DNA of 50,160 bases, taken from a virus. Of the stretch, positions 1,498 through 43,892 are shown piece after piece (the first letter of the stretch is position 1; every line of letters begins with the position of its first letter). Location: positions 1 through 50,160 of IMG/VR virus record IMGVR_UViG_3300013094_000077; one strand, given 5' to 3'. The translations under genes and the position numbers were made by a program. The notes below the pieces were generated by a model. It was not told the DNA's origin, searched no databases, and saw only the letters and a list, made by a program, of their open reading frames with translations.

Positions 1498-1833
1498 TTG
1501 AGTTCTTTTTATATCAATAAAGACGGGGACTATATTTACGATAAGGTTTGCTCGAAATGCAAAGAGAATAAAAAACTCGACGAATTCAGCAGATTAAAAA
1601 ACAATAAAAAGGACGGGCGGCAATCGCTTTGTAAAAAATGTGCCTATGAAGAATTTAAAATTTTCAGAAAAAACAATAAAGATAGAGTAATGCAAAGCGT
1701 GAGGAAATGGGATTTAAAAAATAAAGAAAAAATGAAACAAAAAAAAATTCAAAAATTAAAAGAGAAAAACCCGAACTATTCTCCTAGGGTTAAAATACCG
1801 GACGACGACTACAATCCGTTTTTAGAACTTTAA
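1498..1833 (+). CDS. Small zinc-finger protein
   Basis: This 111-residue Lys-rich protein carries CSKC (about residues 18-21) and CKKC (about 45-48) with the spacing seen in the 1179 product, so the two are probably diverged copies. The second half is a highly charged helix followed by an acidic end. No in-frame ATG is available. The TTG at 1498, preceded by GAAAGG at 1486-1491, is the best start, and it lies immediately after the TGA of the small upstream frame. The 3' end overlaps the end of the opposite-strand gene by four bases. Nucleic-acid binding is inferred from the cysteine pattern only. Confidence 0.65.
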   Translation: MSSFYINKDGDYIYDKVCSKCKENKKLDEFSRLKNNKKDGRQSLCKKCAYEEFKIFRKNNKDRVMQSVRKWDLKNKEKMKQKKIQKLKEKNPNYSPRVKIPDDDYNPFLEL

Positions 1834-4481
1834 TAGATAATTACTTCATTAATTTCTATATAGTTTACTATTGGAGTATATGGGCTATATCCAGATATAG
1901 AACAAATACTGACTTTAGTAACTCCGGTTATTACTGGGGTTGAATAGTAAAATCCAGAAAGATTGACGTATGAGCTATCGTATGCGACCGAATTACCTTG
2001 GTAGATTCTAACTCTTCCAGTTGGCGGAATTATTCCACTTCCTAAAGCGGTCAGCCCATTATATAGTCCAGTGAAGTTTGGATTGATTGATATGTTGGAT
2101 ACATTTATGTATTTGTTGGATGGAGTTACAAAAGATATGCTGCCGGTAAACCCGGTTGCGGTAACAATCGGTGGCGAAGGAGTCAATTGTTTACCAGTTG
2201 GAACTATTGGTATAACGGCGGTTGTATATTGAGAGCCATCTATAGCCAAAGCAGCGGGATTAGATGTATTAGACAATGATGTGAATCCGTAAATTAAACT
2301 TCCGGCTGGGGCATTTGTAGTGTATGACGCAGTTAAAGAGGACGCCAAATTAACCGGCGGCAATACCGTAAACTCCCCATACAAATAAGCGGTTCCAGCC
2401 GAATTTGAAACCAATATATCGTAAGAGCCGGTGGAGCCGGTTATCTGTATATTATTTAATAATAAAGACTGACCATTTGAGGAATAATTAAAATTTGATA
2501 GGCCGAATTTATGGCTATCACCACTAACTCCGCCAGTAATAGAAACGTAGTAAGGCAATCCATAAAAATAATTCAAATTATTTCCGACGACCAAAAGATT
2601 GAAAACTTGGTATTTGTTTACGACAAGTGGGGAGGCATAATATATGGATGGTTGGCCGATAACTGTAAACTGGTTTCTGCTAGAATACGATGATATTCCA
2701 TCTGGCGAGTAGATATATATGTAAGGATTTGAATTATCAACATTAAATGGGACGCTTCCTGTTAATGCGCCGGTATAATTGGCTCCAGATAAATAAAATA
2801 CGCTATTAACACCGCAAACATTAACCAAATATCCTCCGCTATATGGAAATAGATATCCGGTATCAACTTTTGTGTATATAGCTAAATTTGAACCTGCGAA
2901 TCCGCTTGAAGAGCTAAATCCATAAATCGGAACAACAGGATTATAATATGAGTATGATTGAGCTAATCCGCCGGATGAAAAAACAGATATAATCCCAGAA
3001 GGAAATCCGGCACCAACCGAAGGAGTGACGCAGGAAATAGATTGATTGCTATTGACTGTAAAAGACGGGGACTGTATGTTATTAAAATATACTCCTGTAG
3101 TTCCGGTAAAATTTATTCCAGATAAATTTATGGTATCTAGCCATTGTCCAGTTTGAGGATTAATTGAGTATATAAATGGCTGGAAAAAAAATGAATTAAA
3201 AGAGCCGCTGGTGTTTCTTGAATTTGATGATACTGTTATTGGGCCAGACAATCCATTTTGCGGTATATTGCTCAATATTGTTTGAGGGTCTTTTACTATA
3301 AAGGAACTTTTAACACCACCAAAAAAAACATCAGAAACTCTTATAAAATTACTTCCGCTTATTGTTACGTTTGAGCCTATTGCGCCTGTATTGTTAGATA
3401 TTCCGCTTATTGATATACTTGGATATTGGAAATTTATAATATTCGGGTATATGTAATTTCCAGCACTTGTATATACAGTTAATATATCATTTGATATATT
3501 GAATTGATTTGGGCAAATTATCTGGTCATAGGCGGTGGTTCTATTTATTGAGTATCCGGTTATTAATGTATCTCCAACGTATATTTTGTCAAGATATGTT
3601 TTTGAACCATCGCTACTCAATAAAGGAAAAAATCCAGAATTAAAATTAATTGTAAAATTATTAGCGCCAGTTAATACTGAAAATATATATCCATTTTGAT
3701 TGAGATGGTTTTGAGATATTTTTATTTCTGAAGTGTGGTATGAATCTGAGCTAATCGAGAATCTCTTTTGAGATATTATGCCTGAGCATCCAATTGTTTC
3801 GTATATTCCAGTATTAAATGGATTTTGAAATACAAAATTGCAACCAAAATTTTCTCCTGAAACTGGTATGTTCAAATTTGAATTATCAGATAAAATAGTT
3901 GACTCAATTTTTCTTTCATTAAAAAAGACGAAATCCGATTTGTATGGTATCGCGCCCGTATCGTTATATAAGTAAGATGGTTTTACTGAATTTGAATAAA
4001 GAAATGAAGCTTTTAAAAAATTGTTAACTGGGGTAACGGTAAAATTAGATAGATTATTTATTAATAAATCAGAAGAGCGCAATATAAATCCAGTATTGTT
4101 TGTTGGATTGGATTGAGTTATTGAGCCTGTAATTTGGTCAAAGAATGTTATTGTGGCGTCAACATAAACGGGCGAATTAGGCTCGACATCCAAAGAGTAT
4201 TTTGTTAAATATCCGTAGTTAAACGAAAGGCCCGCTATATTTCCAGTGATGTTATCTCTTTCGTCTGTATAAATGAACTGCTTTAAATAATCAAATCCCG
4301 TAAGATAATATCTTAAATTTAATTCCCCAACCCAAGGAGATGATATCAATTGATGTTCTGTAAATCTGTTATTGTATTTATAGTTTGGCGTGGTTGATAT
4401 TTCAGAGGAAATGTCAATATTGTCAGCAAGGAAACTTTTGCCGTTTATTGATACCGGAATCTTTTTAAAACTATAAAACAT
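1830..4481 (-). CDS. Tail-tube-like protein with IPT/TIG repeats
   Basis: This 883-residue protein is Ser, Asn, Gly and Tyr rich, with hardly any charge, typical of extracellular virion beta proteins. Residues about 1-135 share a pattern with the two upstream genes and the tail tube: an early strand of the form E-L-N-L-R-Y, then G-Y-L-T-K-Y-S-L...P-N-S...D-A-T-I-T-F. The middle (about 350-650) contains several immunoglobulin-like IPT/TIG repeats, recognisable as G-S-N-V-T-I-S-G-S-N-F followed by V-x-F-G-G-V. The remainder is also beta-rich. It is the last gene of a three-gene leftward operon, eight bases after its neighbour. A role as a decorated tail or baseplate component is inferred; surface adhesion through the TIG repeats is possible. 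Confidence 0.75.
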   Translation of the reverse strand: MFYSFKKIPVSINGKSFLADNIDISSEISTTPNYKYNNRFTEHQLISSPWVGELNLRYYLTGFDYLKQFIYTDERDNITGNIAGLSFNYGYLTKYSLDVEPNSPVYVDATITFFDQITGSITQSNPTNNTGFILRSSDLLINNLSNFTVTPVNNFLKASFLYSNSVKPSYLYNDTGAIPYKSDFVFFNERKIESTILSDNSNLNIPVSGENFGCNFVFQNPFNTGIYETIGCSGIISQKRFSISSDSYHTSEIKISQNHLNQNGYIFSVLTGANNFTINFNSGFFPLLSSDGSKTYLDKIYVGDTLITGYSINRTTAYDQIICPNQFNISNDILTVYTSAGNYIYPNIINFQYPSISISGISNNTGAIGSNVTISGSNFIRVSDVFFGGVKSSFIVKDPQTILSNIPQNGLSGPITVSSNSRNTSGSFNSFFFQPFIYSINPQTGQWLDTINLSGINFTGTTGVYFNNIQSPSFTVNSNQSISCVTPSVGAGFPSGIISVFSSGGLAQSYSYYNPVVPIYGFSSSSGFAGSNLAIYTKVDTGYLFPYSGGYLVNVCGVNSVFYLSGANYTGALTGSVPFNVDNSNPYIYIYSPDGISSYSSRNQFTVIGQPSIYYASPLVVNKYQVFNLLVVGNNLNYFYGLPYYVSITGGVSGDSHKFGLSNFNYSSNGQSLLLNNIQITGSTGSYDILVSNSAGTAYLYGEFTVLPPVNLASSLTASYTTNAPAGSLIYGFTSLSNTSNPAALAIDGSQYTTAVIPIVPTGKQLTPSPPIVTATGFTGSISFVTPSNKYINVSNISINPNFTGLYNGLTALGSGIIPPTGRVRIYQGNSVAYDSSYVNLSGFYYSTPVITGVTKVSICSISGYSPYTPIVNYIEINEVIIY

Positions 4482-4489
4482 AAATAAAA

Positions 4490-5308
4490 TTAACTTGTCC
4501 TACTGAATGATAGCGAATGGAGTATCAAATTATCAGTAGATATTTCGACTCCCGCCTCTTGCTGTATAAATCCAGTTAAAGGTATCATTATATTATTAGA
4601 GTTATTACCATTGAAAACATTTGATATTGGCTGAATGTTTAAATTTTGAAGTCCCGGATATATATTCTCGAATATGTTTCCGGTATAATTAACATTGAAT
4701 TGAGATTCAGTTAAAATATCTAGAGATTCAACTATTGCGTCGGAATAAACTTGGCAAGGGAACGGATTGGAAAGACTATAAATTGGTTTTATGCCTAAAT
4801 CAACTGAATAACTTGATTGTATTAAACTTGGTGATAGGTTGGTTGAGCCTGATAAAAATTGGGCAGACCAATAATGAGCTATGCCGGATGAATTGCTGGT
4901 ATCATAATAAGAGGAGTCGTTGGAGTTTTGACCAGTGAAATTTCCGGTTATTGGATTATAAACTTTGAATGTAGCATCGGCTTTAACCAAGGAGTTAGGG
5001 TAAAGTTTAAAAGAAAAAGATGATAAGTATCCGCTGACAGAAACTCCGCCGATTGAAATATTAACAGGATTTGAAATGCTTCTGTCGTATTTTTGACCAG
5101 TTATAACTTTGTAGCATGGTTCGTTGTTTGGCTCGAAAAAATAAGAAATCGAAATCTCGGACTCTATTTTTGAAGGAACATTGTTGTATGTCTGATTATT
5201 GTTAAAAACTAAAATGGGTTTTTGTTCAGACTTCTGATTCAAAGTGACTTTATCGGACATTAAAAAACATCCGTTTATATTTAAATTTAAATTATTAAAT
5301 GTAAGCAT
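4490..5308 (-). CDS. Tail-tube-like virion protein
   Basis: This 272-residue uncharged, Ser/Asn-rich protein shares its layout with the genes on either side. An early E-I-S-I-S-Y strand is followed by G-Y-L-S-S-F-S-F...P-N-S-L-V-K-A-D-A-T-F-K-V-Y (about residues 95-120), then S-Y-S-V-D-L near 170, and a final beta region. The same order of motifs is present in the main tail tube (27553-28725), so this is called a paralogue of tube fold. Its start codon lies one base after the stop of the upstream gene (TGA-T-ATG), indicating coupled translation. It is probably a minor tail, decoration or baseplate protein; no enzymatic motif is seen. Confidence 0.7.
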   Translation of the reverse strand: MLTFNNLNLNINGCFLMSDKVTLNQKSEQKPILVFNNNQTYNNVPSKIESEISISYFFEPNNEPCYKVITGQKYDRSISNPVNISIGGVSVSGYLSSFSFKLYPNSLVKADATFKVYNPITGNFTGQNSNDSSYYDTSNSSGIAHYWSAQFLSGSTNLSPSLIQSSYSVDLGIKPIYSLSNPFPCQVYSDAIVESLDILTESQFNVNYTGNIFENIYPGLQNLNIQPISNVFNGNNSNNIMIPLTGFIQQEAGVEISTDNLILHSLSFSRTS

Positions 5309-5309
5309 A

Positions 5310-6290
5310 TCAAAAACTTCCGAAATCTACATTTCCTGTTGGAGATAGATTAACATATCCAAAATCAAGATAATAATTTATTCCGCTGGCTACGAATCCA
5401 AAATCAAGGAATGAATTAGGGGATTTATCTGTATAGTTAAATATTTGACCTACATAAGTCCTTCTTATGGAAACACTTGAGTCGGCATTTATGGCTCTGG
5501 ATTGAGAAACCATTGTTGCATTTTTTAAGAAATATTTATTCATCAATAAATAATTTCTATTAGCGTAAACATCAATCTCTAAATTCTGAATTATTTTGGA
5601 ATTGGCAAAATTATTTAATTTATAATCGTTAAATGACAGGTCTGGTTCAAAAGTAATGTCGCAAGAAAAGTTTATTGGGTAAATTATTTCGGCTCTTTTG
5701 AACGGTGGGTATCCTATGTTATATATTGGAATTCTGTTTATGTCTATAGAAAAAGAAAAATTTGTAACGCGGTTTCCAGTTGATTCATTTATTGATAAAT
5801 TAATGAAATTTGAATTTCCTATTTCATTATTAAATGGATTTAGCCCCCCAGAAATTATTCCAGAATATTGCGAAAAAGATAAAACATCTAAAGAGCCGGT
5901 ATTTATTTGGCCGACATTTGAAAAAAATCTAAATGATGATTTTGATGTTATTAATTGATTCGGTGAAAAATTAAGTGAATAATTCATCAAATACCCAGAG
6001 TTTAAAACGTATGGATATGTGTCTGATAAATTCTTTAATATGAAGAAATTTGAAGGATTGTTTCCCGTTACATATTGAAATAAATCTTCACTGACCAATA
6101 TTGAATCAAGGTTCAAGTCAGCCGATTGCGCCGAATTAACATTTTGGTTTATTGATTTTGAGCCTATTCCTATATAATTAACTGGATAGGCCCCGAAATT
6201 ATTGTCTATTGAATACGATTGTATTCCAAATACCTGAGAGGAATTTAGAAAAAATAGTTGGTCTTTAGCTTTAATCCTGCCAAATGGCAT
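5310..6290 (-). CDS. Tail-tube-like virion protein
   Basis: This 326-residue protein is first in the leftward operon. Motifs in order are A-D-L-N-L-D (about residue 60), G-Y-L-M-N-Y-S-L-N-F (about 102), F-S-F-S-I-D-I-N-R (about 178) followed by a strand ending F-S-C-D-I-T-F, and near the C-terminus F-L-K-N-A-T with a hydrophobic strand. The equivalent sites in the tail tube at 27553 are Y-N-L-S-F-N-L-N and L-K-G-A-K-F, and in 38441-39754 F-D-L-S-L-D-L-N-R and I-R-G-A-K-L. This supports common descent. The start is backed by AAGGATAAGG upstream and by a leftward GTGTAA element 35 bases away. It is a likely structural tail protein of unknown position. Confidence 0.7.
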   Translation of the reverse strand: MPFGRIKAKDQLFFLNSSQVFGIQSYSIDNNFGAYPVNYIGIGSKSINQNVNSAQSADLNLDSILVSEDLFQYVTGNNPSNFFILKNLSDTYPYVLNSGYLMNYSLNFSPNQLITSKSSFRFFSNVGQINTGSLDVLSFSQYSGIISGGLNPFNNEIGNSNFINLSINESTGNRVTNFSFSIDINRIPIYNIGYPPFKRAEIIYPINFSCDITFEPDLSFNDYKLNNFANSKIIQNLEIDVYANRNYLLMNKYFLKNATMVSQSRAINADSSVSIRRTYVGQIFNYTDKSPNSFLDFGFVASGINYYLDFGYVNLSPTGNVDFGSF

Positions 6291-6325
6291 ATAATCTACC
6301 TTATCCTTATTTTATTATTTTATAT

Positions 6326-6345
6326 TTACACGATTATTAGTGTAT
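6326..6345. promoter_or_regulatory. Bidirectional GTGTAA-type promoter candidate
   Basis: An inverted repeat TACAC-N8-GTGTA (6327-6344) sits in the 81-base gap between divergent operons. Read leftward it gives GTGTAAATAT (35 bases before the ATG at 6290). Read rightward it gives GTGTATTTTA (26 bases before the ATG at 6372). The same element recurs at the other operon heads. Confidence 0.5.
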
Positions 6346-6371
6346 TTTATTTAAAAGGAAAAGGTTTTTTA

Positions 6372-6890
6372 ATGCAATATAATATATATTCAATAGATAA
6401 TTGGCAGCCATCAACGAATTATTCTAAAAATTACATAGTTCAAAATAGCGGCCAATATTACTACGCATTCAATAATTTTATCTCGTCGTCGTCCATAAAT
6501 ACCGATATATCAAACGGAAATTTGTTTGGATACGTTTATTATCTAGGCGCTAATAGGCCATTTTTCAATTGGAAGCCCACATATAATTTTTCAAATGAAA
6601 GTCAGCCGAGAGTAAAGAAAATACAATTTGGCGACGGATACTTTCAAAACATACCTGACGGAATAAATAATTTATTGTTGAATTATACTTTTAAATTCGA
6701 GGGAGACTTGGCACAAACAACTGCTATATTACATTTTCTAACAACAAGAAATGGTTGCGAGTCTTTTTGTTTTTTACCTCCCGCGCCAAGAGGTCAAATA
6801 TCAACATTTATTTGTCCAAAATGGACTGATATACAGCCTTTTTTCAATAATTATTCAATAGAATGTAATTTTCAGCAGGTTCCTATATAA
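6372..6890 (+). CDS. M: Minor tail protein, lambda gpM-like
   Basis: This 172-residue protein belongs to the lambda gpM minor-tail family by its central signature: F-x-W-x-P-x-Y, then P-R-V-K-K-I-Q-F-G-D-G-Y, then P-D-G-I-N, and a later F-L-T-T-R-N-G-C-E-S-F with P-P-A-P. In lambda, gpM is part of the tail-tip assembly that precedes tube polymerisation. The first 50 residues are extra relative to the roughly 110-residue family norm and look like a small carbohydrate-binding module (W-Q-P...Y...V-x-N-S-G-Q-Y-Y-Y-A). The ATG at 6372 follows AAAAGGAAAAGG; an upstream in-frame start would overlap the divergent gene. Genes for L, K, I and J follow in lambda order. Confidence 0.85.
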   Translation: MQYNIYSIDNWQPSTNYSKNYIVQNSGQYYYAFNNFISSSSINTDISNGNLFGYVYYLGANRPFFNWKPTYNFSNESQPRVKKIQFGDGYFQNIPDGINNLLLNYTFKFEGDLAQTTAILHFLTTRNGCESFCFLPPAPRGQISTFICPKWTDIQPFFNNYSIECNFQQVPI

Positions 6891-6901
6891 TTTTAAAATA
6901 A

Positions 6902-7930
6902 ATGTCTAATCCTATACCTATAAGCACGGGTCAGGCTCAAATATCAAGTAAAAGCTTGGTTTCTGAGGTGATGTCTTTATATCCAAGTGCTTTAATAACT
7001 CTTTTTGAAATAGATATATCAGATTTAGGTCTTAACGCGGGAATTTTATCGCAAACCGAATACAACATCGGGATAAATACAATTTTTAGATTTCATAATA
7101 ATATAAATCTAACTAATAATAGCATATTTTGGCAAGGGAATCAATATGTGGCTGCCCCTATAAATGCAGAAAATTTCGAGATGAACTTAAAGGGTTCTCC
7201 AGCCATACCAACACTCACATTGACTGTAAGCGATGCCGGAATACCGCAAATATCTATTTTCAAACAAAGAATTAGGCAGTTGGGTGATATAGCTGGCGCA
7301 AAAGTAACCAGAATAAGGACTTTCGCAAAATTTATTGATTCGGCTAATTTTTTTAACAATATTCCTCCGGCAAATTTTTCTCCAGACCCTACGCAGGAAA
7401 TGACAAGAGATATATTTTATATTGACAGATTATCTCAAGAAGATAAATACATGGTTCAATACGAATTATCGCCTCTTTTTGTTTTGGACGATATAACACT
7501 TCCGGGTAGAATAATATCTGAAAATTCATGTCCTTGGCAATACAGAGGCGAAGGATGCCTTTATGAATATTCTGGCAGGGCGACGTATATACACAACAAT
7601 GGAACTCTTCTTAAAAGTGCGCCGCCGGTGGCGACAATATTCGACGAGAAATTTTCAAATTTAATAACTGGAGTTCCATTTATAGATAAGGGTGCTTACA
7701 ATTTAGGTCAAACTTATAACGCAGGGGAATACTGCTACATACAAAATAGAGGAATAAAATATTATTTTATATCTTCAATTAATAATAACTCTTCAACACC
7801 TCCAAATCAACCAAGCTGGCTGGCCGACGAATGCAGTAAAAGAATACTAGGTTGTAAATATAGATTTCAAAATATAAACTCTGGAGTTTTGCCTTTTGGC
7901 GGGTTTCCTAGCGTTAACAGATTTCAATAA
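6902..7930 (+). CDS. L: Minor tail protein, lambda gpL-like
   Basis: This 342-residue protein matches the gpL tail-tip family. Key evidence is the paired cysteines: C210 and C219 in a S-C-P-W-Q-Y-R-G-E-G-C context, and C311 and C318 in C-S-K-R-I-L-G-C-K-Y-R-F. These are the ligands for the iron-sulfur cluster of this family, and the 9- and 7-residue spacings are typical. Unusually, about 92 residues separate the two pairs, far more than in lambda. The insert (about 262-308) looks like a small sugar-binding module (Y-N-L-G-Q-T-Y-N-A-G-E...W). It lies between M and K in a compact rightward operon and should act at the tail tip under the central fibre. Confidence 0.88.
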   Translation: MSNPIPISTGQAQISSKSLVSEVMSLYPSALITLFEIDISDLGLNAGILSQTEYNIGINTIFRFHNNINLTNNSIFWQGNQYVAAPINAENFEMNLKGSPAIPTLTLTVSDAGIPQISIFKQRIRQLGDIAGAKVTRIRTFAKFIDSANFFNNIPPANFSPDPTQEMTRDIFYIDRLSQEDKYMVQYELSPLFVLDDITLPGRIISENSCPWQYRGEGCLYEYSGRATYIHNNGTLLKSAPPVATIFDEKFSNLITGVPFIDKGAYNLGQTYNAGEYCYIQNRGIKYYFISSINNNSSTPPNQPSWLADECSKRILGCKYRFQNINSGVLPFGGFPSVNRFQ

Positions 7931-7934
7931 TGTT

Positions 7935-8633
7935 ATGTTATTTGAATCGCTAAAAGATGAGCTTAGAGATTATTCAAATGAAAACTCTCCAAACGAATGT
8001 TGCGGATTAATTATAGAAAAAAACGATAAAATATCATTTTTTAAATGCGCTAATATATCATCTAATAAAAAAACCAGTTGTGTTTTGAGTCCTTTAGATT
8101 ATATGAGAGCTTATAAAAAAGGCAAAATAATAGCTCACTTCCACTCTCAGCCAGATAAAAGCGCCAGTATAATAGATTATATAAATGCGGTTAATCACAA
8201 TATATTTTCAGTAATTTATTCTTGGGAATTCGATTTGTTCTCTTTTGTTGAGCCTAAACTGAAAGATTATTTAAACAAAGATTATAATATAGGAAAAAGT
8301 GACTGCTATACACTGGTGATTGACTATTTTAGAGATGAATTAGGTGTAAAATTAAAAGATTACGAGAGGAAAGGTGAGTGGTGGAAAGAAAGTCCAAATT
8401 TAATATTGGATAATTTCAAAAAAGAAGGTGGAATAGCTGTTGATTTTAAAGATATAAAAAGAAATGATGTTGTTGCTTTTAATTTAGGAGGAGCGGTATG
8501 TCATTTCGCTATTTATTTGGGAGATGGAATGTATCTGCATCACCCATATAATGAAAAATCCATTATATCCGAAATTGATGAAAAATACATAAAAAAGATA
8601 TCTTTGGTTATAAGACACAAATCTTTATTTTAA
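7935..8633 (+). CDS. K: Tail assembly peptidase, lambda gpK-like
   Basis: This 232-residue protein has two enzyme domains as in lambda gpK. The N-terminal JAMM/MPN metalloprotease domain keeps E21, H68-F-H70 and D81 (HxH-x10-D). The C-terminal NlpC/P60 cysteine peptidase domain keeps C124 (G-K-S-D-C) and H190 in C-H-F-A-I-Y-L-G-D-G. In this family the NlpC/P60 part is expected to cut cell-wall peptides during entry or to act in tail-tip assembly. The ATG at 7935 is chosen, five bases after the stop of L; a TTG 39 bases upstream is in frame but overlaps L. Its stop is one base before the next start. Confidence 0.88.
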   Translation: MLFESLKDELRDYSNENSPNECCGLIIEKNDKISFFKCANISSNKKTSCVLSPLDYMRAYKKGKIIAHFHSQPDKSASIIDYINAVNHNIFSVIYSWEFDLFSFVEPKLKDYLNKDYNIGKSDCYTLVIDYFRDELGVKLKDYERKGEWWKESPNLILDNFKKEGGIAVDFKDIKRNDVVAFNLGGAVCHFAIYLGDGMYLHHPYNEKSIISEIDEKYIKKISLVIRHKSLF

Positions 8634-8634
8634 T

Positions 8635-9285
8635 ATGAGCCTAGTAAAATTTAAATTATACGGAGAATTGGGTAAATTTATTGGAAGCGAAGAGTGGGAG
8701 TTGGATGTGAGCAGTGTCCAAGAAGGAATTCAAGCTTTGAACTCTATCACAAAGAATAAATTTAATGATTATTTTATATTAAATAATAAGTTAAAAGCTA
8801 AGTATAGAGTTATAATAAATGGAAGAGATTTTCTATGTGAAGAAAAAGAATTAAATGAAAGTAATTGGGAAAAATTCACAGAGTCAGAATTGGTGATGAA
8901 AAAGAATGATTTGCAAACAGTTGATATAGTTCCATTGATTGAAAGCTCTAGTGGCGTTATAAATGCGATACTAGGCGTTCTGTTGATAATAGTTGGAGCT
9001 ATTTTAGCTTTCATTCCGGGCGCTCAAGGATTGGGGTATGGTTTGATTGTTGCTGGTCTATCACTGTTGGCAAACGGTATTATAGCTTTGCTGTCTAAGC
9101 CACCAACATTTAATTACAATCAATCCAACTCGAATTCAGTTTCTCAATCATATCTATTCAATAGTCCGCAAAATACCGTTGGAGAAGGTGGCCCAGTTCC
9201 AGTTGGATACGGAACAATGTTGTTGGGAAGTAATGTAATAAGTGCTGGATATTTGATAAATGAATTCCAAACATTTCGCTCATAA
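8635..9285 (+). CDS. I: Tail assembly protein, lambda gpI-like
   Basis: This 216-residue protein resembles lambda gpI. An N-terminal ubiquitin-like half (residues about 1-95, starting V-K-F-K-L-Y-G-E-L-G-K-F) is followed by a long glycine- and isoleucine-rich hydrophobic hairpin (about 105-155). The conserved tail ends S-Y-L-F-N-S-P-Q-N-T...G-x-P-V-P-V-G-Y-G, then L-G-S-N-V-I-S-A-G-Y. It is required for tail-tip assembly in lambda. Its position between K and J, with a TAA-T-ATG junction upstream, confirms the assignment. Confidence 0.88.
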   Translation: MSLVKFKLYGELGKFIGSEEWELDVSSVQEGIQALNSITKNKFNDYFILNNKLKAKYRVIINGRDFLCEEKELNESNWEKFTESELVMKKNDLQTVDIVPLIESSSGVINAILGVLLIIVGAILAFIPGAQGLGYGLIVAGLSLLANGIIALLSKPPTFNYNQSNSNSVSQSYLFNSPQNTVGEGGPVPVGYGTMLLGSNVISAGYLINEFQTFRS

Positions 9286-9295
9286 TTAAAGTAAT

Positions 9296-11986
9296 ATGTC
9301 AACAGAAGCGCCAGAAGGAATAGTAGCATATAGTTGGAGCGGAAATTTGCAATCCGACAACAACTACAGAACCGGCATACAGGTCGGTAATGGAGCTTAT
9401 ATAGATACGACCGACATACTTGGAACAAGGCACACAGGAACAGAATACCTTCAATTAAGCGATACAATAATAGAAACTTTGGATTTGATTTCAGAAGGCG
9501 TTATAGAGGGCCCGCTTAGTGGTAAGTGGATTTTTTCAGGTAATTTAGGTCAAACAGGTTGGAGTTCCGCATATTTTTCTGGATATAACTATCCTTCTGG
9601 TTATCAAAATTTATCTTGGTTACGTTCGGTTTATTGGAATGAGTTGCCGGTTTTGAGCGATGCAGGTCAGTTCAATTTTCAAAACGTAAATGTTTCATAC
9701 ACTCAGGGAACTCCAAATGGAGACGTAATACAGCAATTAACAAACGAAGAATCAACAAGTAGAAGCATAGGAACGAGGCTTTACGCTGGCGATGAAAATG
9801 CACAAGTATTTAGAATATTGAATCAAAACTGCAAAGGTGCAATTATAAACATAAGAATGAATTCATTAAACAATGAAAATTCTGGAAATGGAAATATAGA
9901 AAGAACGCTTGTTCAATATCAAGTTTCTTATCGTCCCGTATTTAATACTGTTTATAAAATAACGGCTTTTTCGACTCCCGTTACCGCCAATGTTTTTGGT
10001 AAAATAGCCTCCGCAGGTGGATATATAAATTCTACAAGGTTGGATTTTAATTTATCTTCTTTTATATACGGCGGCCCGAATGGTGGTCAATCTGTTATAG
10101 AAAACCAAGGAATTCTTCAAGACCCAGATTTTATAGGGTGGGAAATTAGAGTTTCAAGAATAACGCCGGATTCGACAACCGCTTTATTAGCTAACGAAAC
10201 TTACATAGATAATATATCAGAACTTTACGGCTCTCAATTTTCTTATCCAAACTCAGCAATATTTAGAGCAAGTTTCGACGCTCAATTTTTCAGCGAAATT
10301 CCATCCAGAGGATTTGAATGCAATCTTTTAAGAGTTAAAATTCCAGCTAATTACAACCCAATACTTAGAACATACGCAACTGGAGGAGTAGGAACAACTA
10401 ATGGAGCTTGGAATGGTCTGATGACAGGAGATTTTTGGACTAATAATCCGGCGTGGTGTTTTTATGATTTGATAAGCAATAGAAGATATGGACTTGGAAA
10501 ATATATAGATAATATTTCTTTAAATAAATTCGATTTGTATAACATAGCTCAATATTGCGATGAATTGGTGGCAGATAGCTACGGAGGTTTGGAACCAAGA
10601 TTCACTTGTAATGTTTGGCTCGCCAGCAAAGAGGACGCATACAAAGTTGTCAATGATATGGCATCTATTTTTAGAGGTATGTGTTATTATTTTAATGGCA
10701 ATATAAACGTGACACAAGACCAACCTAAAACACCTAGGTATATATTTAATAATGCTAACGTGGAAAACGGAGATTTTAAATATTCCACAAGCTCAAAAAG
10801 AACTAGACAGTCAATAGCGGTTATAAGATATAATGACCCAAAAAATTTCTATAAACCAGCGATTGAATATGTTGAAGATTTGGATTCTATAAGAAAATAC
10901 GGAATAAAAGAAATACCCATTACCGCATTTGGATGCACAAGCAGAGGTCAGGCGATTAGACTTGGCAAATGGGCAATATATAGCAACAATATAGAAACCG
11001 AAACAGTGGAATTTATAGCTGGAATAGAAAGTTCGCTATTAAGGTGCGGCGATGTATTTGGCGTTATTGACTACAATAGAAAATTAAAAAGATACGGCGG
11101 AAGAACTTTGCAGATTAATAACTCTGGATACGTTGGCGCTGGATTTACTGGCGCTCAAATTGTATTAGATTCAAAAGTGGAGTTATCGTCCGGCACTCAA
11201 TATACTCTGTCTCTATTATCTCCGACTTATTATTATGACCCGTCTCAAGTAACTGGATTGACAAGTGCTCAATATCAAAACATCTACAGTTCATTCATAC
11301 AAAATTTAAACTTTTCAGGCGACTACTGCTATCAGTCTGGAAACTACACGATAGTAAATATACCAACAGGATTTGACTCTTCAAATTATAATATATCTGG
11401 ATTAACTAATATTTGGTCTATAGAATTAGGGCCAAACTCGTTAAATTATACTGGAAATTTTTACTTTTTTAATCCTTCGGTTGATTACTATAGAGTTTTA
11501 AATATAAAAGAAAGCGACTCTAATAAATTCAACGTAGTAGGGCTTTCTTATAACGGAAGTAAATTTCAACAAATAGATACCGGAACTGTATTAAGCCAGA
11601 GTCAGCTATCGAGCTACACCGCCATTCCGTCATCGCCTTATGCTTTGTCTTTAAATGCTTATAAGTTGTCCAATTCAGCAAGCTATATACAATACTCATT
11701 TTTAGTTAATAGTTATTCAAATATTTCTAGCTATTATGTATATGCAACAACTGGAAATTTCATTGGAAATTCAGCGCCGGATAGCAAATACCTAATTTCA
11801 ATATTACCTAATAATATAACAAGCGCAACATTCCCTTCGACAATAACTGGAAATTATTTAATGAGAGTTTATGGATTTGACGCCGTAAATTCAACTTTTT
11901 CAACCGGATGCGCCTCTGGTTCTGTTTATTTAACTAACTCTCTTCCAATTCAAGACGTTATAATAGGCGGACTTGGATTAAATTAA
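9296..11986 (+). CDS. J: Central tail fibre / tip attachment protein, lambda gpJ-like
   Basis: At 896 residues this is the J homologue that caps the tail, forms the central fibre base and usually contacts the receptor. Conserved gpJ features include the early L-S-D-T-I-I-E-T-L-D-L-I-S-E-G-V-I-E-G-P-L segment (about residue 55), Y-D-L-I-S-N-R-R-Y-G-L-G near 388, and the W-x-A-S-K-E-D-A-Y...D-M-A-S-I-F-R-G-M...D-Q-P segment near 440-480. The last 250 residues are Ser/Asn/Tyr-rich beta structure and probably the variable part. It is shorter than lambda J; the following gene starts four bases later and may supply the distal part. Confidence 0.88.
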   Translation: MSTEAPEGIVAYSWSGNLQSDNNYRTGIQVGNGAYIDTTDILGTRHTGTEYLQLSDTIIETLDLISEGVIEGPLSGKWIFSGNLGQTGWSSAYFSGYNYPSGYQNLSWLRSVYWNELPVLSDAGQFNFQNVNVSYTQGTPNGDVIQQLTNEESTSRSIGTRLYAGDENAQVFRILNQNCKGAIINIRMNSLNNENSGNGNIERTLVQYQVSYRPVFNTVYKITAFSTPVTANVFGKIASAGGYINSTRLDFNLSSFIYGGPNGGQSVIENQGILQDPDFIGWEIRVSRITPDSTTALLANETYIDNISELYGSQFSYPNSAIFRASFDAQFFSEIPSRGFECNLLRVKIPANYNPILRTYATGGVGTTNGAWNGLMTGDFWTNNPAWCFYDLISNRRYGLGKYIDNISLNKFDLYNIAQYCDELVADSYGGLEPRFTCNVWLASKEDAYKVVNDMASIFRGMCYYFNGNINVTQDQPKTPRYIFNNANVENGDFKYSTSSKRTRQSIAVIRYNDPKNFYKPAIEYVEDLDSIRKYGIKEIPITAFGCTSRGQAIRLGKWAIYSNNIETETVEFIAGIESSLLRCGDVFGVIDYNRKLKRYGGRTLQINNSGYVGAGFTGAQIVLDSKVELSSGTQYTLSLLSPTYYYDPSQVTGLTSAQYQNIYSSFIQNLNFSGDYCYQSGNYTIVNIPTGFDSSNYNISGLTNIWSIELGPNSLNYTGNFYFFNPSVDYYRVLNIKESDSNKFNVVGLSYNGSKFQQIDTGTVLSQSQLSSYTAIPSSPYALSLNAYKLSNSASYIQYSFLVNSYSNISSYYVYATTGNFIGNSAPDSKYLISILPNNITSATFPSTITGNYLMRVYGFDAVNSTFSTGCASGSVYLTNSLPIQDVIIGGLGLN

Positions 11987-13395: not shown

Positions 13396-14466
13396 ATGCA
13401 ATACCCTGATTGTAAAAATTTGATTGATTCTGGAGGGGTTTTTAAAACTTGTGAGTTAATAGCTAATTACACCGGCGGACTCAGTGGAAGAGTGGTTCCA
13501 GCAATGTGCCAATCTACCTGCAAAATGTTCGGCCCTTATTGTGGTAAAAAAATATCTAAAGAAGAAGAGGCTAAATTTGTTTCAAAAATATTTATATTTG
13601 ATTTCTCGGCTACAAAATTTGAGTTCTTGAAAAGAATATTGGGGCAATATTTGATGCCAGTAAAAATAAGGTATCCAGAAAAGGAATGGATTGAAATAAA
13701 AAAATCACTTAAGCCATTCGTTGATTCAGGTGAGATATCAAAAATTTACCTAACTGGCTCATTATTAATTGAGAAGGAAAATCATAAGGATTTCGACATT
13801 TTATTAAAAATAAATACTTGGAAAAACCATAAAATAATAAAAGATAGGCTGCCTAAAACAATAATGGGTAAAAATTGCGACTATTTTTTTACTTCACTGG
13901 AAGAAATGCACGATAGGACTTTTTGCGTAATGGATTGCGACGAAAAAATATTATATACTACATCTTGGTATGAATTAAAAATAGAAAGCTTGCCAGATTT
14001 TTTAACGGTAAAAAAAAGTGAGCCCCTTCATATAAACAAATACATACAGGAAGAATTAAAGAAAAATTTAAATATATTTTCCGGTAAATCAAATAAAGAA
14101 TTTTCAAGTTCTCAGCTAGAGGCCAAAATAAATTGGAAAACAGTGGAATCAAGTTGGAAAAAGGCAATATCTTTTTTGAAATCAAATATTAGCTTGTTAA
14201 CAAAAGAAAAAATAAGCGACGAATTATTGAAGCAAAGAATTCAATCATGTTTTGGAAACGGAAAAGATTTAAAAGAATGCGAAGTTTTATCAAAATCTGA
14301 TGATGGAAATTTTTATTGCGGAGCCTGTGGATGTGGAAAAAGCGAAATGACAAAATTAAGCAATTCTGAAAACGAAAACTCTTTCAACAAATTACACTAT
14401 CCTTATCTTGAGTGTCCATTAAATAAAAAAGGTTTTAATAATTACGTCATTTCGACAAAAAGTTAA
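13396..14466 (+). CDS. Nucleotidyltransferase-like protein with cysteine-rich ends
   Basis: This 356-residue charged protein is unlike the virion proteins before it. Residues 117-139 read as a minimal nucleotidyltransferase motif: G121-S122, then D132-F-D134 followed by I-L-L. A Cys-Asp pair about 25 residues later (N-C-D-Y-F-F) may give the third carboxylate. The N-terminus has five cysteines (C6, C19, C38, C42, C49), and the C-terminus has C-G-A-C-G-C-G and a later E-C-P, probably zinc-binding. The family could transfer nucleotides to protein or RNA, as in MNT-type antitoxins, but the target is unknown. It ends the tail-tip operon and overlaps the opposite-strand gene by about 20 bases. Confidence 0.65.
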   Translation: MQYPDCKNLIDSGGVFKTCELIANYTGGLSGRVVPAMCQSTCKMFGPYCGKKISKEEEAKFVSKIFIFDFSATKFEFLKRILGQYLMPVKIRYPEKEWIEIKKSLKPFVDSGEISKIYLTGSLLIEKENHKDFDILLKINTWKNHKIIKDRLPKTIMGKNCDYFFTSLEEMHDRTFCVMDCDEKILYTTSWYELKIESLPDFLTVKKSEPLHINKYIQEELKKNLNIFSGKSNKEFSSSQLEAKINWKTVESSWKKAISFLKSNISLLTKEKISDELLKQRIQSCFGNGKDLKECEVLSKSDDGNFYCGACGCGKSEMTKLSNSENENSFNKLHYPYLECPLNKKGFNNYVISTKS

Positions 14467-14938
14467 TAATTTTATTTACTTTTTTATCAGTCAAACCTTT
14501 CCACGGATTTAATTGAAAAAAATGTTTTCCAAATGACTTTAAATTATCGTAATCATTTGAGGAGTCGTCAACTACGATATAATTGTCAATATCTTTCTTG
14601 TATTTGTCTATCCACCAATTTATCTCTTTGTATTTTTGTCCGGTAATAGCTGTTTTGCTTATAAATCTTTTTGCATATTCTTTTTTCAAGCCCTGATGTA
14701 TTAAGCCATCGGTTAATTCTTTCAAAGATACGAATCTCCTCCAAGAACTAGATACGACTATATTTAAATCAGGTATAACAGCTAAAAGTTTATTAAGAGA
14801 ATTGACGTTATCTGGGCAAATTTGAGTTTTGCAGACTTCCTCGGTGGTATAGTCGTCTTTGTATATATTGTTTTTAGGAGTCTCAAAATAAGACAAATTA
14901 TTCAATGTTCCATCAACATCTAAAAAGCATATAATCAT
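14447..14938 (-). CDS. HAD-superfamily hydrolase
   Basis: This 163-residue protein contains the HAD motifs in order: F-L-D-V-D-G-T-L-N at residues 5-13 (nucleophile Asp and acid/base Asp), V-V-S-S-S-W-R (motif II, about 60-66), and I-V-V-D-D-S-S-N-D (acidic motif IV, about 118-126). It resembles the stand-alone HAD phosphatases related to polynucleotide-kinase 3'-phosphatase domains, so an RNA or DNA end-processing role is possible. An upstream ATG at 14992 would add 18 hydrophobic residues, but 14938 places the catalytic motif at the usual position and behind a leftward GTGTAA element. It is alone on this strand between two rightward operons. Confidence 0.8.
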   Translation of the reverse strand: MIICFLDVDGTLNNLSYFETPKNNIYKDDYTTEEVCKTQICPDNVNSLNKLLAVIPDLNIVVSSSWRRFVSLKELTDGLIHQGLKKEYAKRFISKTAITGQKYKEINWWIDKYKKDIDNYIVVDDSSNDYDNLKSFGKHFFQLNPWKGLTDKKVNKIINFLSK

Positions 14939-14952
14939 AATATAATTATAAA

Positions 14953-14978
14953 TTACACAAAAATAAAATATCGTGTAA
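14953..14978. promoter_or_regulatory. Bidirectional GTGTAA-type promoter candidate
   Basis: TTACAC (14953-14958) and GTGTAA (14973-14978) form an inverted pair in the 65-base divergent gap. The leftward copy is 14 bases before the HAD start at 14938. The rightward copy, GTGTAAAATTTAA, is 25 bases before the start at 15004 of the head operon. Confidence 0.5.
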
Positions 14979-15003
14979 AATTTAATTATCAAATAATTAT
15001 TTT

Positions 15004-19758: not shown

Positions 19759-22700
19759 ATGAATTTTAAGAAGAAAATTTTTTCAATACTAGCGATTTTA
19801 TTTTTAGTTTCTAAGTGTTTTTCTGCTTATGTTCCTTTGCCAAATACAACTAATTTATTTGCAGGGGATGGAAATGGAGGGGCGGTTGACTCTGGATTGA
19901 ATCAGAGTTCAATCGTATCAACAAATTACTTGTCTGGAGGAGGATGGTGGGAACTTTATACAAATAAGACCGCTCTTTATGAAGGTAAATTATATTACTT
20001 CACTAATTCTACAACAGCAGGTTTGCAGGAATGTCAAAATGCACAACAAGCAGTTTTAAATGCCCCTTCTTCTATAAATATACACCTACAACCAAACTCC
20101 ACATATACATTTGAATCGCCAGTATATTTTACTAATAACGTAAGAATTTCTGGGGGAACAATGAACAGCACATGGCTGCTTTACGATGGGCCGACCAACC
20201 TTTACAGCTACTCCTATTTCACCAACATCATTTTTCCAATGTTCCGCAACGATGGCATTGAAGATGGGACAAATTACACGAAAGTTGGATTAATAAATTT
20301 TTATTGCAACCCATATATAGCTCCGCAATCAAATGCTAACCGAGTAGTGGGATGGCAGCCGCCTTATTATGACATTTATTTGGATAATTTTACGGTGTCT
20401 GTCAAAACAAATTTGCCTTGCGTAATAATAGCGGGCGGAGCTTTTAACGCTTACATAGACCGAGTTAACATTGGCGGGGAAGGTATGTTCAGGACAAATT
20501 CTCTGGGTTCACAGATTGCATTTCTTGAGGTTACAAATGCTCCGTTGGAAATCGCATTAGCGTTGGACGTTCTTTATTGTTTCAAAATTCACGAGAGTAA
20601 GGTGCAGGGATGCGCGGATGGTTGGTTGAGTATCGGCAACGCCAACGTGAAAGTGGACGACTGCACAGCCAGCAGCATCAGTTATTGGATTAAAAACGGG
20701 TCGCCAACCAAAGGCAATGGTTTCCCGACGAACTCTTGGATAGGCGTCGGCCCTGCGCTCTACTTCGGGCAAGTCTCCAACGACGCATGGGTTCACACTT
20801 ATGCAACTTATTCCTGTAAGATTGACTTTTGGTGTGAGGCTGGTTCAATGCAAGACTTCACCGATTACTCGCCGCAAGGCGCTTTTGGTGGCGTCGCTAT
20901 TGCTGATGACCATTCTTGGTATGGGAAAGCCGATTGCGAAGGCGGTAGTAGCCAATGGCAAGGCTGGATAGTCAAAAACGTCATTCAAGTATCTGACGGC
21001 AGCTTTGCTATTAGGCAGATAAGTGCCAATGACATCACCAACGGCATGAATGCTGGCATCAGCGACTTCTTTGGTCAAGGACTTGGCGTAAATGCAAGTG
21101 CCAATTATGGCCCGGGTGCCGGAAACGGTTGGGCATTTAATCAAGGCGTTCTCGATGGCCCGAACCTCGTGAACGGCTGGTGTTCGATTGGTGCGGGCGG
21201 TGGAACTGGCGTCAACTATTTTGGGGACGCTTATCCGATTTACGGCAACGGCGCTTATCTCTACAACGTGCAAGGCTCGGCCATCACTGGAACGCTGGGC
21301 AACAACACGACCGGCTCCGCAGCCAACGCGACCAACCTAAACGGCGTTGCGGCGGGCAACTACGCGCTCAAGACCGACGCGACCAACGCTGCATCTGCGG
21401 TTGCGGCGACGATTCCGGGAAGCAAAGTTTTGCTCGCCACTAACGCGCCGGATGGAAATGTTTCCGCCTCGCTGAACAATGTTTCCAACCTTGTTGCCAC
21501 GCTGCCGTTGCCCGCCGCCAACCTCGTCGGCACGGTTTCGGCGGCGAACCTGCCAGCGGGCGTGGTGACAAATGGAACTGTTTTGACTGCGATTTCAACC
21601 AACCAGTTTTTGGTGAACTATCCAGCCAACACAAATTTCAACGGCACATACACCGTGGCTGTCCGCGATAATGCCAATCAGTATTTTGATTTCACTAACA
21701 AAACTTATCACTTGGCATACAACGCTTCTGTATGGGGTGCAAATATTTGGGCTTTGGCAACGGACACCAACAATATTGGTTCAATAGTTGTCTATAACGC
21801 CGTCTTTGGAAACCCTACTCCGATTGGTTTGTGGTTAAATGCTTCTGACAATTCGGCAGCCGGAAACTTTGTTTCTTTCGTTTATCTGCCGCAAACCAAC
21901 GCGCCCGCCAGTTTGAAGCTGGATTACATTTTTACCAACCTCGTTACCACCAACGCTTACGTTGACCCGCTGCGTGGTTCCGATACTTATGGCCGAATTG
22001 GTTATTACCCATTCCAAACCATCAACGCCGCCATCAATTCCACTAGCGCACCCGTGGACATTTATCTAGCCGAAGGTCAATACAACGAAAATTTCATTTT
22101 GCGAAAGACGCAAAGGCTATTCGGCAAAGGTAACGCCAGCCAAATCAGCGGTATTCTTTATGTAGTGGACAGTAACACAGTGGACAGCGTAAAAATCATC
22201 GGCTCGGGTTATTTTGAGGCGGATGCCAGCACGGGCGTTTATTTCAATAACGTGATGGCCGATTCAAGCGCGGTTGATTTGTTTCAAGTTCAAACGGCGC
22301 GCACAAATTGGACGTTTGTAAATTGCCATTTCAAATGCTCCGGCACTTTATACAACGGCAACATTTCGGGGACAGAAAACCATTTCAACGAAATTTTAGA
22401 GGCTTATGGCAGCGGCGTTTCAGGCCAAAACTACGCCAGCGGTTACGGCGGCAGCGTAAATCTAAACACTACGGGAACGGTCAACATTTACGGCGGCTCG
22501 GTGGTTTGCACAAACTTGAGCCTATCTTCCGGCGGTTTATTCCTCAACAATTCAGGATGGTCAAACACGACATGGAATCTTTACGGCGTTTGCTTTTCAC
22601 ACAATCTGAACTCCAGCAACCCTGCAATTTACAATTCAACTACGGGCAAAGTTAATGGAACTTACTTTGACAACGGAACTAACTTTGTTTTGAGCGGAAC

Positions 22701-22926
22701 ATTTTTAACCGCAACCAATACGCTCACCGTTGCTGCAACGGGAGCAACAAATAACACGGGCGACACTTATCTCGTTTCCGTCACTGCCGGAACATCAATG
22801 GCATTGAAAGACCAGAATGGCAATCAATACCTGACACCCATCGCTAACTCGGCCTTCCCGCTAAAACCAAGTCAACGATTTACTGGGTCTGGCATCACGG
22901 CCACTGCTTTAATTATTAGCAAATGA
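19759..22926 (+). CDS. Secreted beta-helix / tail-fibre-like protein
   Basis: This 1055-residue protein opens with a typical signal peptide (M-N-F-K-K-K, a hydrophobic core, then a short polar stretch about residue 22). Residues about 60-440 look like a right-handed beta-helix of the pectate-lyase type. A collar region follows (about 510-620) with repeated A-T-N-L-N-G-V-A, A-A-N-L-V-G-T-V and A-A-N-L-P-A-G-V turns seen in fibre shafts. A second parallel beta-helix begins with Y-V-D-P-L-R-G-S-D...P-F-Q-T-I-N-A-A (about 735-760). Bases before about 20160 are AT-rich, whereas the rest is GC-rich. A virion fibre should not need export, so it may be a secreted depolymerase or a fibre with an unusual assembly route. 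Confidence 0.72.
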   Translation: MNFKKKIFSILAILFLVSKCFSAYVPLPNTTNLFAGDGNGGAVDSGLNQSSIVSTNYLSGGGWWELYTNKTALYEGKLYYFTNSTTAGLQECQNAQQAVLNAPSSINIHLQPNSTYTFESPVYFTNNVRISGGTMNSTWLLYDGPTNLYSYSYFTNIIFPMFRNDGIEDGTNYTKVGLINFYCNPYIAPQSNANRVVGWQPPYYDIYLDNFTVSVKTNLPCVIIAGGAFNAYIDRVNIGGEGMFRTNSLGSQIAFLEVTNAPLEIALALDVLYCFKIHESKVQGCADGWLSIGNANVKVDDCTASSISYWIKNGSPTKGNGFPTNSWIGVGPALYFGQVSNDAWVHTYATYSCKIDFWCEAGSMQDFTDYSPQGAFGGVAIADDHSWYGKADCEGGSSQWQGWIVKNVIQVSDGSFAIRQISANDITNGMNAGISDFFGQGLGVNASANYGPGAGNGWAFNQGVLDGPNLVNGWCSIGAGGGTGVNYFGDAYPIYGNGAYLYNVQGSAITGTLGNNTTGSAANATNLNGVAAGNYALKTDATNAASAVAATIPGSKVLLATNAPDGNVSASLNNVSNLVATLPLPAANLVGTVSAANLPAGVVTNGTVLTAISTNQFLVNYPANTNFNGTYTVAVRDNANQYFDFTNKTYHLAYNASVWGANIWALATDTNNIGSIVVYNAVFGNPTPIGLWLNASDNSAAGNFVSFVYLPQTNAPASLKLDYIFTNLVTTNAYVDPLRGSDTYGRIGYYPFQTINAAINSTSAPVDIYLAEGQYNENFILRKTQRLFGKGNASQISGILYVVDSNTVDSVKIIGSGYFEADASTGVYFNNVMADSSAVDLFQVQTARTNWTFVNCHFKCSGTLYNGNISGTENHFNEILEAYGSGVSGQNYASGYGGSVNLNTTGTVNIYGGSVVCTNLSLSSGGLFLNNSGWSNTTWNLYGVCFSHNLNSSNPAIYNSTTGKVNGTYFDNGTNFVLSGTFLTATNTLTVAATGATNNTGDTYLVSVTAGTSMALKDQNGNQYLTPIANSAFPLKPSQRFTGSGITATALIISK

Positions 22927-23363
22927 CCCGCCACCAACCAACCCGTTCCTACCTGCTATTGCTGCTGGCGTTGCTGCTGGGCGGTTGCGCGGCGCAGGCC
23001 ATGCCGCCGGTAAGCAAGCCAATATCTCAATCTCAAACAGTTCAATTAATTTCTATATTAGATACGAATGCAATACTTCCATTCAATCAAGTTAATTTTT
23101 ACGCAGCGCAATTAACTGACACGAATTGGACTTTAGTTGGCTCTTCTTCGACAACAAACGGAGCCTTAATGGTAACTAATAGCCAACTTTTTTCTCAGCC
23201 GTTTAATTCAACGTGGGTTTTTGCTTCTGAAGTAACAAATACATCAGTTGGATATCCTTTATACGCAAGTGATTACACTACAATTACGAATAAATTGGGA
23301 GTTCAGCCTTCAATAGCATTAAGTCGCCCATTGACAATAAATATAATACCAAAAATCCAGTAA
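22923..23363 (+). CDS. Predicted lipoprotein, possible superinfection-exclusion factor
   Basis: This 146-residue protein has a positively charged start, a leucine-rich core and a lipobox L-L-G-G-C at residues 18-22, so it should be lipidated at C22 and exported. The mature part is Ser/Thr/Asn-rich with no recognised domain. Its ATG overlaps the stop of the 1055-residue gene (ATGA), so the two are coupled. A composition break falls inside the gene near 23015: the signal peptide is GC-rich and the mature part is AT-rich like the phage. By analogy with phage lipoproteins encoded beside receptor-binding genes, receptor blocking is one option; an outer-membrane spanin is another. Confidence 0.65.
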   Translation: MTRHQPTRSYLLLLLALLLGGCAAQAMPPVSKPISQSQTVQLISILDTNAILPFNQVNFYAAQLTDTNWTLVGSSSTTNGALMVTNSQLFSQPFNSTWVFASEVTNTSVGYPLYASDYTTITNKLGVQPSIALSRPLTINIIPKIQ

Positions 23364-25961: not shown

Positions 25962-26603
25962 ATGTCTGCGGTTTTAAATACAATAAGTTTTAATAAAAAG
26001 TTAGAAAATCTAACTAAATCAAAGTCATTCATTGCTTTCGCTAGAAACGCGGCGGAAACAAGAACTAATGCAGCAAAAGAAAATTTAATAGAAAGTTTAA
26101 TGGAGGAGCCAGTTATAAAGGAGATTCAGGAGGCCTCAAAAGACCCGTCAATACAAAATTCCGAATTTGTTTCTAAAGGAAATCTAGTGGCGGCTTTGGG
26201 GTTTCATCAGGGGTCTGACCCAGCCGGAGAATTAGCAGAATATTTAGAGGAAAATATTTATCAAAAGGAATCTTCGCCAAAAATAAATTGGAGTCCAAAC
26301 AAAACTCAATATTCTTTTTCCATAAATTATCCATCCAAAAATCAAATAAACGAACATTTTTCAAGTGATGCGGAATCAAAGCTTGAATGGACAAATCGCT
26401 CGTGGATAGATATAATAGAAAATGGAATATCAAATGCTTTAAAAAAATACATATTTTGGAGCGAAGGTTTCAAGCCGGAAGGAATTTCTCGCTCCACTAC
26501 TGGTTTGCAATCAAAGGGTTCGGTTAAAAACGTCGCTACTTTGACCCCTTCAAAATTTTTAACAAAATTATTGGACAATTTCAAAAAACAAATAAATAAA
26601 TGA
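25962..26603 (+). CDS. Probable neck / tail-completion protein
   Basis: This 213-residue mixed protein has an N-terminal helix (residues about 10-55, rich in Ala, Glu and Lys) and a glycine-rich segment (A-A-L-G-F-H-Q-G-S-D-P-A-G-E-L) near 75-90. That segment is followed by strands and a Trp-rich patch (W-T-N-R-S-W-I-D-I-I) near 140-150. Its place suggests a HK97 gp10-like neck or tail-completion role. Its stop overlaps the next start (ATGA at 26600-26603), so translation is coupled. No catalytic motif is seen. Confidence 0.5.
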   Translation: MSAVLNTISFNKKLENLTKSKSFIAFARNAAETRTNAAKENLIESLMEEPVIKEIQEASKDPSIQNSEFVSKGNLVAALGFHQGSDPAGELAEYLEENIYQKESSPKINWSPNKTQYSFSINYPSKNQINEHFSSDAESKLEWTNRSWIDIIENGISNALKKYIFWSEGFKPEGISRSTTGLQSKGSVKNVATLTPSKFLTKLLDNFKKQINK

Positions 26604-43891: not shown

Positions 43892-43892
43892 A

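Follow-up and report, generated by a model that had tools for sequence, protein, structure and literature searches.

The linear virus record IMGVR_UViG_3300013094_000077 of IMG/VR (50,160 bases, referred to here as the window) was analysed for five genes, designated A to E, with products that resemble tail tube proteins. No terminal repeats were found in this record. Three of the genes form a triad on the minus strand, which is read in the order C (5310-6290), B (4490-5308) and A (1830-4481); D (27553-28725) is located on the plus strand and E (38441-39754) on the minus strand. The five open reading frames (ORFs) were confirmed with the coordinates and strands originally predicted. The original prediction held that the triad, D and E share the same ordered beta-strand motifs and represent five paralogues of tail-tube fold in three transcription units. 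Our analysis confirmed that A, B, C, D and E are members of one family with common ancestry.

Comparison of the five proteins by BLASTP revealed matches between D and E (26% over 425 amino acids, E=7e-22) and between A and B (27% over 128 amino acids, E~1e-6), whereas C was only weakly similar to A/B (E~0.01) and none of A, B and C had a significant direct match to D or E. Pairwise BLASTP thus gives two unlinked groups, so the shared motifs are not obvious and profiles are needed. Family profiles were built from relatives identified in viral contigs (with D, B, a D/E profile, a D-type profile and gpL as queries) and in genome contigs, the groups having no members in common, and were compared with hhalign. 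The highest match was found for D-E (8e-64), alignable over the full length of E, followed by A-B (2e-31), C-D (6.9e-19 over 270 columns), A-C (9e-17), B-C (2.8e-13) and C-E (2.4e-11). The pairs A-D, A-E and B-D were not significant in hhalign and B-E was marginal (2e-4). Since A and B have no solid direct match to D or E, the family is joined through C. A bridging relative (L169:6212-7036) matched the D/E profile at 4e-18, the C profile at 2e-48 and the B/A profile at 4e-9.

Every pair not between two of A-E served as control, 243 pairs in total. The best control pairs reached 64% and 61% probability, nothing comparable to the family matches, and both of them (two tape-measure-chaperone-like proteins, and gpM with gpL) are plausible true relatives. 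These matches, read against the controls, establish the predicted relationship of the triad to the two distant genes. Searches of PHROGs, Pfam and NCBIfam named none of the five as a tail protein; phrog_290 (minor tail protein) was matched by four of the 49 members of the D alignment and seven of the 52 members of the C alignment.

AlphaFold models were obtained for D (49 sequences; predicted local distance difference test (pLDDT) 81.9, predicted template modelling score (pTM) 0.83) and for C (52 sequences; pLDDT 72.0, pTM 0.71), in which residues ~285-326 form a low-confidence tail. Foldseek comparison of the D model with the PDB revealed the SH-Ab15497 major tail protein, pb6 of T5/DT57C, the P74-26 tube protein and T5 tip-core chain G (298 residues), with E-values of 3e-11 to 8e-9 for two-domain tube proteins; the entries 8xan, 9iny and 8ed0 matched over the full length and the HFTV1 tail chain 9fkb_BA was also among the matches. 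The best match of C was T5 tip-core chain 7qg9_G (E=1.7e-9), followed by pb6. From its length and the component list of the corresponding paper, 7qg9_G is taken to be p140. Sequence searches of the PDB with the C and D profiles gave no credible match. The models suggest that D and C are two-domain tube-like proteins, and together with the profiles they bear out the predicted five paralogues of tail-tube fold. Neither unrelated folds nor a failure of the motifs to align in profile searches, either of which would have spoken against that prediction, was found.

Analysis of the two halves of these proteins revealed that the halves of D match each other (1.4e-6, 90% probability). Between C and D, the N-terminal halves matched at 1e-10 and the C-terminal halves at 2e-19, cross matches being weaker (about 1e-4), and B (272 amino acids) matched C half by half. 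The two halves of C showed no significant sequence match to each other. Pairing of N-half with N-half and C-half with C-half between families indicates that the internal duplication predates the paralogues, and each of A-E appears to hold two tube domains rather than one. B is classed as two-domain and tube-like from its hhalign matches to C and A. A proved to be related as predicted, with the qualification that its two-domain tube-like region is confined to residues 1 to ~260 (about 3702-4481); the rest is fibre-like and contains TIG-type repeats.

D (390 amino acids, two tube domains) is the major tail tube protein of the window, as judged from gene position, tree and structure. Its gene precedes two genes in the position of tape-measure chaperones (29063-30783, plus strand), which are kept in relatives and reach 64% probability with each other in hhalign, and the gene for the tape measure protein (TMP) of 2245 amino acids (30823-37560, plus strand; phrog_4211, phrog_14917 and phrog_28); the same arrangement was found in relatives. 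The tree places D in one clade with 70 further major tail proteins, which occupy the same gene place in relatives. A gene in a tail-completion-like position (26600-27460, plus strand) stands before D, and its homologues are found upstream of the D orthologues in relatives.

E (437 amino acids), the second D-type paralogue, is an ancient sister of D. The clade of E, which comprises six genes that all directly follow the portal gene, stands apart from that of D (support 90) and has long branches. The portal gene of the window (39747-41837, minus strand) was assigned by place, its homologues following the large terminase gene in relatives. E is followed by gene F (37561-38436, minus strand; likely ATG start near 38436), with homologues near E in two relatives (L175, 2e-33; L176, 9e-26). 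The tree also contains a third clade, X2, whose members follow a gpM-like gene in a marine subgroup. The assignment of C as a mere orthologue of X2 was considered and rejected, as C aligns with a separate family of 261 amino acids and X2 with D/E.

The C-B-A triad adjoins the lambda-type tail-tip genes gpM-L-K-I-J, an association kept in dozens of uncultured phage contigs. Between the divergent starts of C (6290, minus strand) and gpM (6372, plus strand) lies an intergenic stretch of 81 bp (6291-6371). The gpM-like tip protein (6372-6890, plus strand) matched phrog_14 (minor tail protein) at 2.6e-23; its ORF was listed from a TTG at 6258, the likelier start being the ATG at 6372, after AAGGAAAAGG. 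Genes similar to gpL, gpK, gpI and gpJ follow (6902-11986, plus strand; phrog_18, phrog_30, phrog_32 and phrog_31). Around the triad, sites resembling promoters or terminators were about as frequent as in shuffled sequence. A gpL-anchored scan of viral contigs yielded 80 contigs; C with two B/A-type genes was found in 45 of these, and many of the remaining contigs are truncated. In the window and in most relatives, the triad and gpM-gpL-gpK-gpI-gpJ are read away from each other. In one subgroup, however, C and B are located between TMP and gpM: two relatives (L169 and L173) carry TMP-C-B-gpM-gpL-gpK-gpI on one strand, and L174 shows the same colinear order. Rings placed between tube and tip would be expected to have their genes in this order. 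As a separate observation, unusually long gpM-like proteins (319 to 998 amino acids), possibly doubled or with extra domains, were found in three contigs (L018:8926-9882, L169:7800-8777 and L174:1567-4560).

Analysis of A beyond ~260 residues identified PF20144 at residues 435-490 (1.3e-10; 41.7 bits, above the cut-off of 24). In relatives, A is either fused to a TIG-type part (about 700-1360 amino acids in total) or followed by a separate long ORF; the fused or following TIG-type protein comprises ~1000 residues. Several of the long ORFs after A match the C-terminal part of A, many relatives having A split in two genes. Taken together, A of at least 600 amino acids or a following ORF of at least 500 amino acids was observed in 37 of 49 cases, some of them cut by contig ends. 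The same property was found for 10 of 81 major tail proteins, 4 of 89 C genes and 11 of 51 B genes, the last count including genes before a fused A. Fusions to BspA-type leucine-rich repeat (LRR) or fn3 domains occur in rare members of the C and X2 families. Of the six E genes, two precede the gene of a long protein that starts with K-V-S-Q-L, similar to the start of some phage fibres. Adhesins are hence strongly linked to A but only occasionally to the other paralogues.

Fusions of tube-like domains to BspA-type LRR, with up to 16 matched stretches, were also recorded in marine phage contigs (L001:9902-16117, L020:3652-8850 and L050:9905-11785). In L068:4679-10888 a C-type tube domain lies within a protein of 2070 amino acids with fn3 and galactose-binding-like domains.

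Overall, we consider it probable that the five genes arose from one two-domain tube protein and now encode different rings of a single non-contractile tail; no tail sheath match was found in the window, and hence no sign of a contractile tail. In the proposed arrangement, D would polymerise round the tape measure as trimeric, pseudo-hexameric rings, the threefold rings being assumed, and so build the tube. C, B and A would form special trimeric rings that follow the last D ring and precede that of gpM, in a virion order deduced from the genes, and would adapt the tube to the tip at the place of the one p140 ring of T5. A may carry or dock a TIG-type side fibre, and E may form another special ring at a location that we can only suppose. 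C combines a two-domain fold and paralogy to the phage's own tube protein with a gene in the tip module, beside gpM and in the order TMP-C-B-gpM in three relatives, as expected of ring proteins of the type of p140 and the baseplate-tail connector (BTC). C, B and A are therefore most likely p140-like special rings at the tip, B and A being assigned by homology. For E, a special ring in a head-proximal or fibre-bearing place is our leading guess, suggested by its gene place after the portal. Special rings at tip, neck and surface had been proposed in the original prediction. Such a role is likely: gene order supports the tip for C, B and A, and fusion or adjacency of A and the TIG-type protein supports a surface fibre; a neck position for E may be suggested only by the gene standing directly after that of the portal. 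Several observations weigh against this interpretation. Foldseek TM-scores are about 0.5-0.6 for both D and C, the C model is of moderate confidence (pLDDT 72), and the models cover D and C, A and B being tube-like by profile alone. The triad of the window is divergent from the tip operon, colinearity coming from other genomes, and some relatives have no B or A, or have A alone, which suggests that not every ring would be essential. Stoichiometry and location of the rings are likewise deduced from genes and models.

The other reading of the original prediction, a tube of mixed composition, would have D and E (or the tandem D-type copies of relatives) co-polymerise into a heteropolymer, for example with different segments. 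Alignment of E with D over the full length fits such a tube, as does the occurrence of two tandem D-type genes in several relatives (G005, G008, G009 and G011). The placing of E in another transcription unit beside the portal gene, its long-branched clade apart from that of D, and the presence of D alone in the major-tail-protein place of the window all argue against it, and for this phage we regard a mixed tube as quite unlikely; in the relatives with two tandem D-type genes it is possible. It is also unlikely that C, B and A lie outside the tube, as an external collar or side-fibre base round the tip that kept the fold as a scaffold. In most genomes a long TIG-type protein is fused or linked to A, which would suit a collar, as would the LRR or fn3 fusions of the C-type copies of L020 and L068, but the nearest fold of C is the T5 tip-core chain taken as p140, a tube ring (PMC10038345), and the TMP-C-B-gpM gene order fits the tube axis. 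That the extra copies are redundant, or are alternative host-range versions of tube or fibre anchor expressed in turn, agrees with a copy number that varies among relatives from about 3 to 5. We nevertheless hold it to be highly improbable, since every paralogue keeps a gene place and a clade to itself even in very divergent genomes, which fits fixed and distinct roles; no search for inversion or switching sequences was made.

Within the preferred reading of different rings in one tail, we tentatively put forward a broader idea, itself somewhat doubtful: one duplicated tube gene may have radiated into a complete set of end-specific rings. Three different rings would be stacked at the tip and another would lie near the head, and several of the rings would act as exchangeable sockets for adhesins (TIG, BspA-type LRR, fn3 and LamG). 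If true, tail ends would be built and re-armed by tube paralogues and not by separate collar or baseplate proteins.

Analysis of the relatives revealed records with the full set of D, E, C, B and A, among them G013 (203 kb), G014 (209 kb), G017 (144 kb), G018 (116 kb) and G021 (89 kb), other relatives having three or four paralogues; five paralogues per phage are thus common but not universal. A D-type relative is encoded in 419 viral contig stretches. Among the 50,697 phage records of INPHARED no match was found for the D, portal and major capsid proteins of the window or its relatives; the terminase is distantly similar to those of Bacillus phages, and gpJ widely matches lambdoid phages. The set of five is a conserved hallmark of a large-phage lineage without cultured members. 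D-type genes were also seen in contigs binned as Halobacteriovorax, Flavobacteriaceae, Verrucomicrobiales and Flavobacteriales (L156, L157, L158 and L159); these bins are possible hosts, and the contigs may be misbinned viruses.

Other features of the window were recorded. The record opens with 5.5 perfect copies of a GC-rich unit of 17 bp (positions 1-94), and its first kb has 51% GC against 35% overall, perhaps marking a chimeric or foreign contig end. The stretch 19759-23363, between head and tail genes, has 45-52% GC and looks like a recently acquired cassette; it encodes a protein of 1055 amino acids with a signal-peptide-like start and a lipoprotein-like protein of 146 amino acids, without a Pfam match. 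A HAD domain of the Swiss Army Knife RNA repair type (PF18143, 1.4e-18) is encoded at 14447-14992 on the strand opposite to its neighbours. Two glycosyltransferase-like genes, one GT1-like and one GT9-like, are present at 41966-45086, and their homologues adjoin the C-B-A triad or the tip genes in L160, L172, L205 and L256.

The two-domain tube fold is known already, and so is a tube paralogue serving as tip ring, with T5 p140 and HFTV1 BTC as single precedents. In the open-access literature we found no description of phages with as many as five two-domain tube paralogues that are related in sequence and occupy fixed gene places over a large lineage. Up to five recognisable paralogues constitute a series in which the passage from polymer-forming protein to end-specific rings can be studied, and the lineage lets one ask what stops and starts tube growth and how fibres attach and are exchanged. 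As the structural genes tested had no match in INPHARED, they also give access to a widespread group of large, uncultured phages.

Comparison with known systems begins at the tip, where gpM of lambda forms a tube-like ring between tube and tip; the window has a gpM-like protein besides the five paralogues. T4 gp54 and gp48 also form tube-like rings between tube and tip (PMC10038345). Unlike the proteins of the window, gp54, gp48 and gpM are not two-domain paralogues of this kind. The BTC of HFTV1, a pseudo-hexameric trimer with two homologous domains, sits between tube and hub (PMC12494034); it resembles the present proteins in having two such domains, and 9fkb_BA is among the matches of D, but the BTC is present in single copy and the HFTV1 tube is hexameric. 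The rings formed by T5 pb6 and by the tube protein of P74-26 are pseudo-hexameric trimers with duplicated domains (PMC5717097, PMC10034513). D agrees with them in having two tube domains per chain, in fold and in a gene placed before that of the tape measure, and differs in showing no detectable sequence similarity to PDB entries, its threefold symmetry being presumed. The T5 p140 trimer, which sits after the last pb6 ring and before pb9, was derived from pb6 by gene duplication according to the authors, with 9% identity (PMC10038345). C is similar to it as a two-domain tube paralogue at the tip with 7qg9_G as best PDB fold match. However, T5 has a single protein of this kind, as against as many as three next to the tip genes here (C, B and A) with E in addition, and the paralogues described here are still related by sequence profiles. 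Finally, T5 has a separate p132 collar that holds the fibres, whereas in the present family the TIG-type protein is fused to A itself or encoded next to it.

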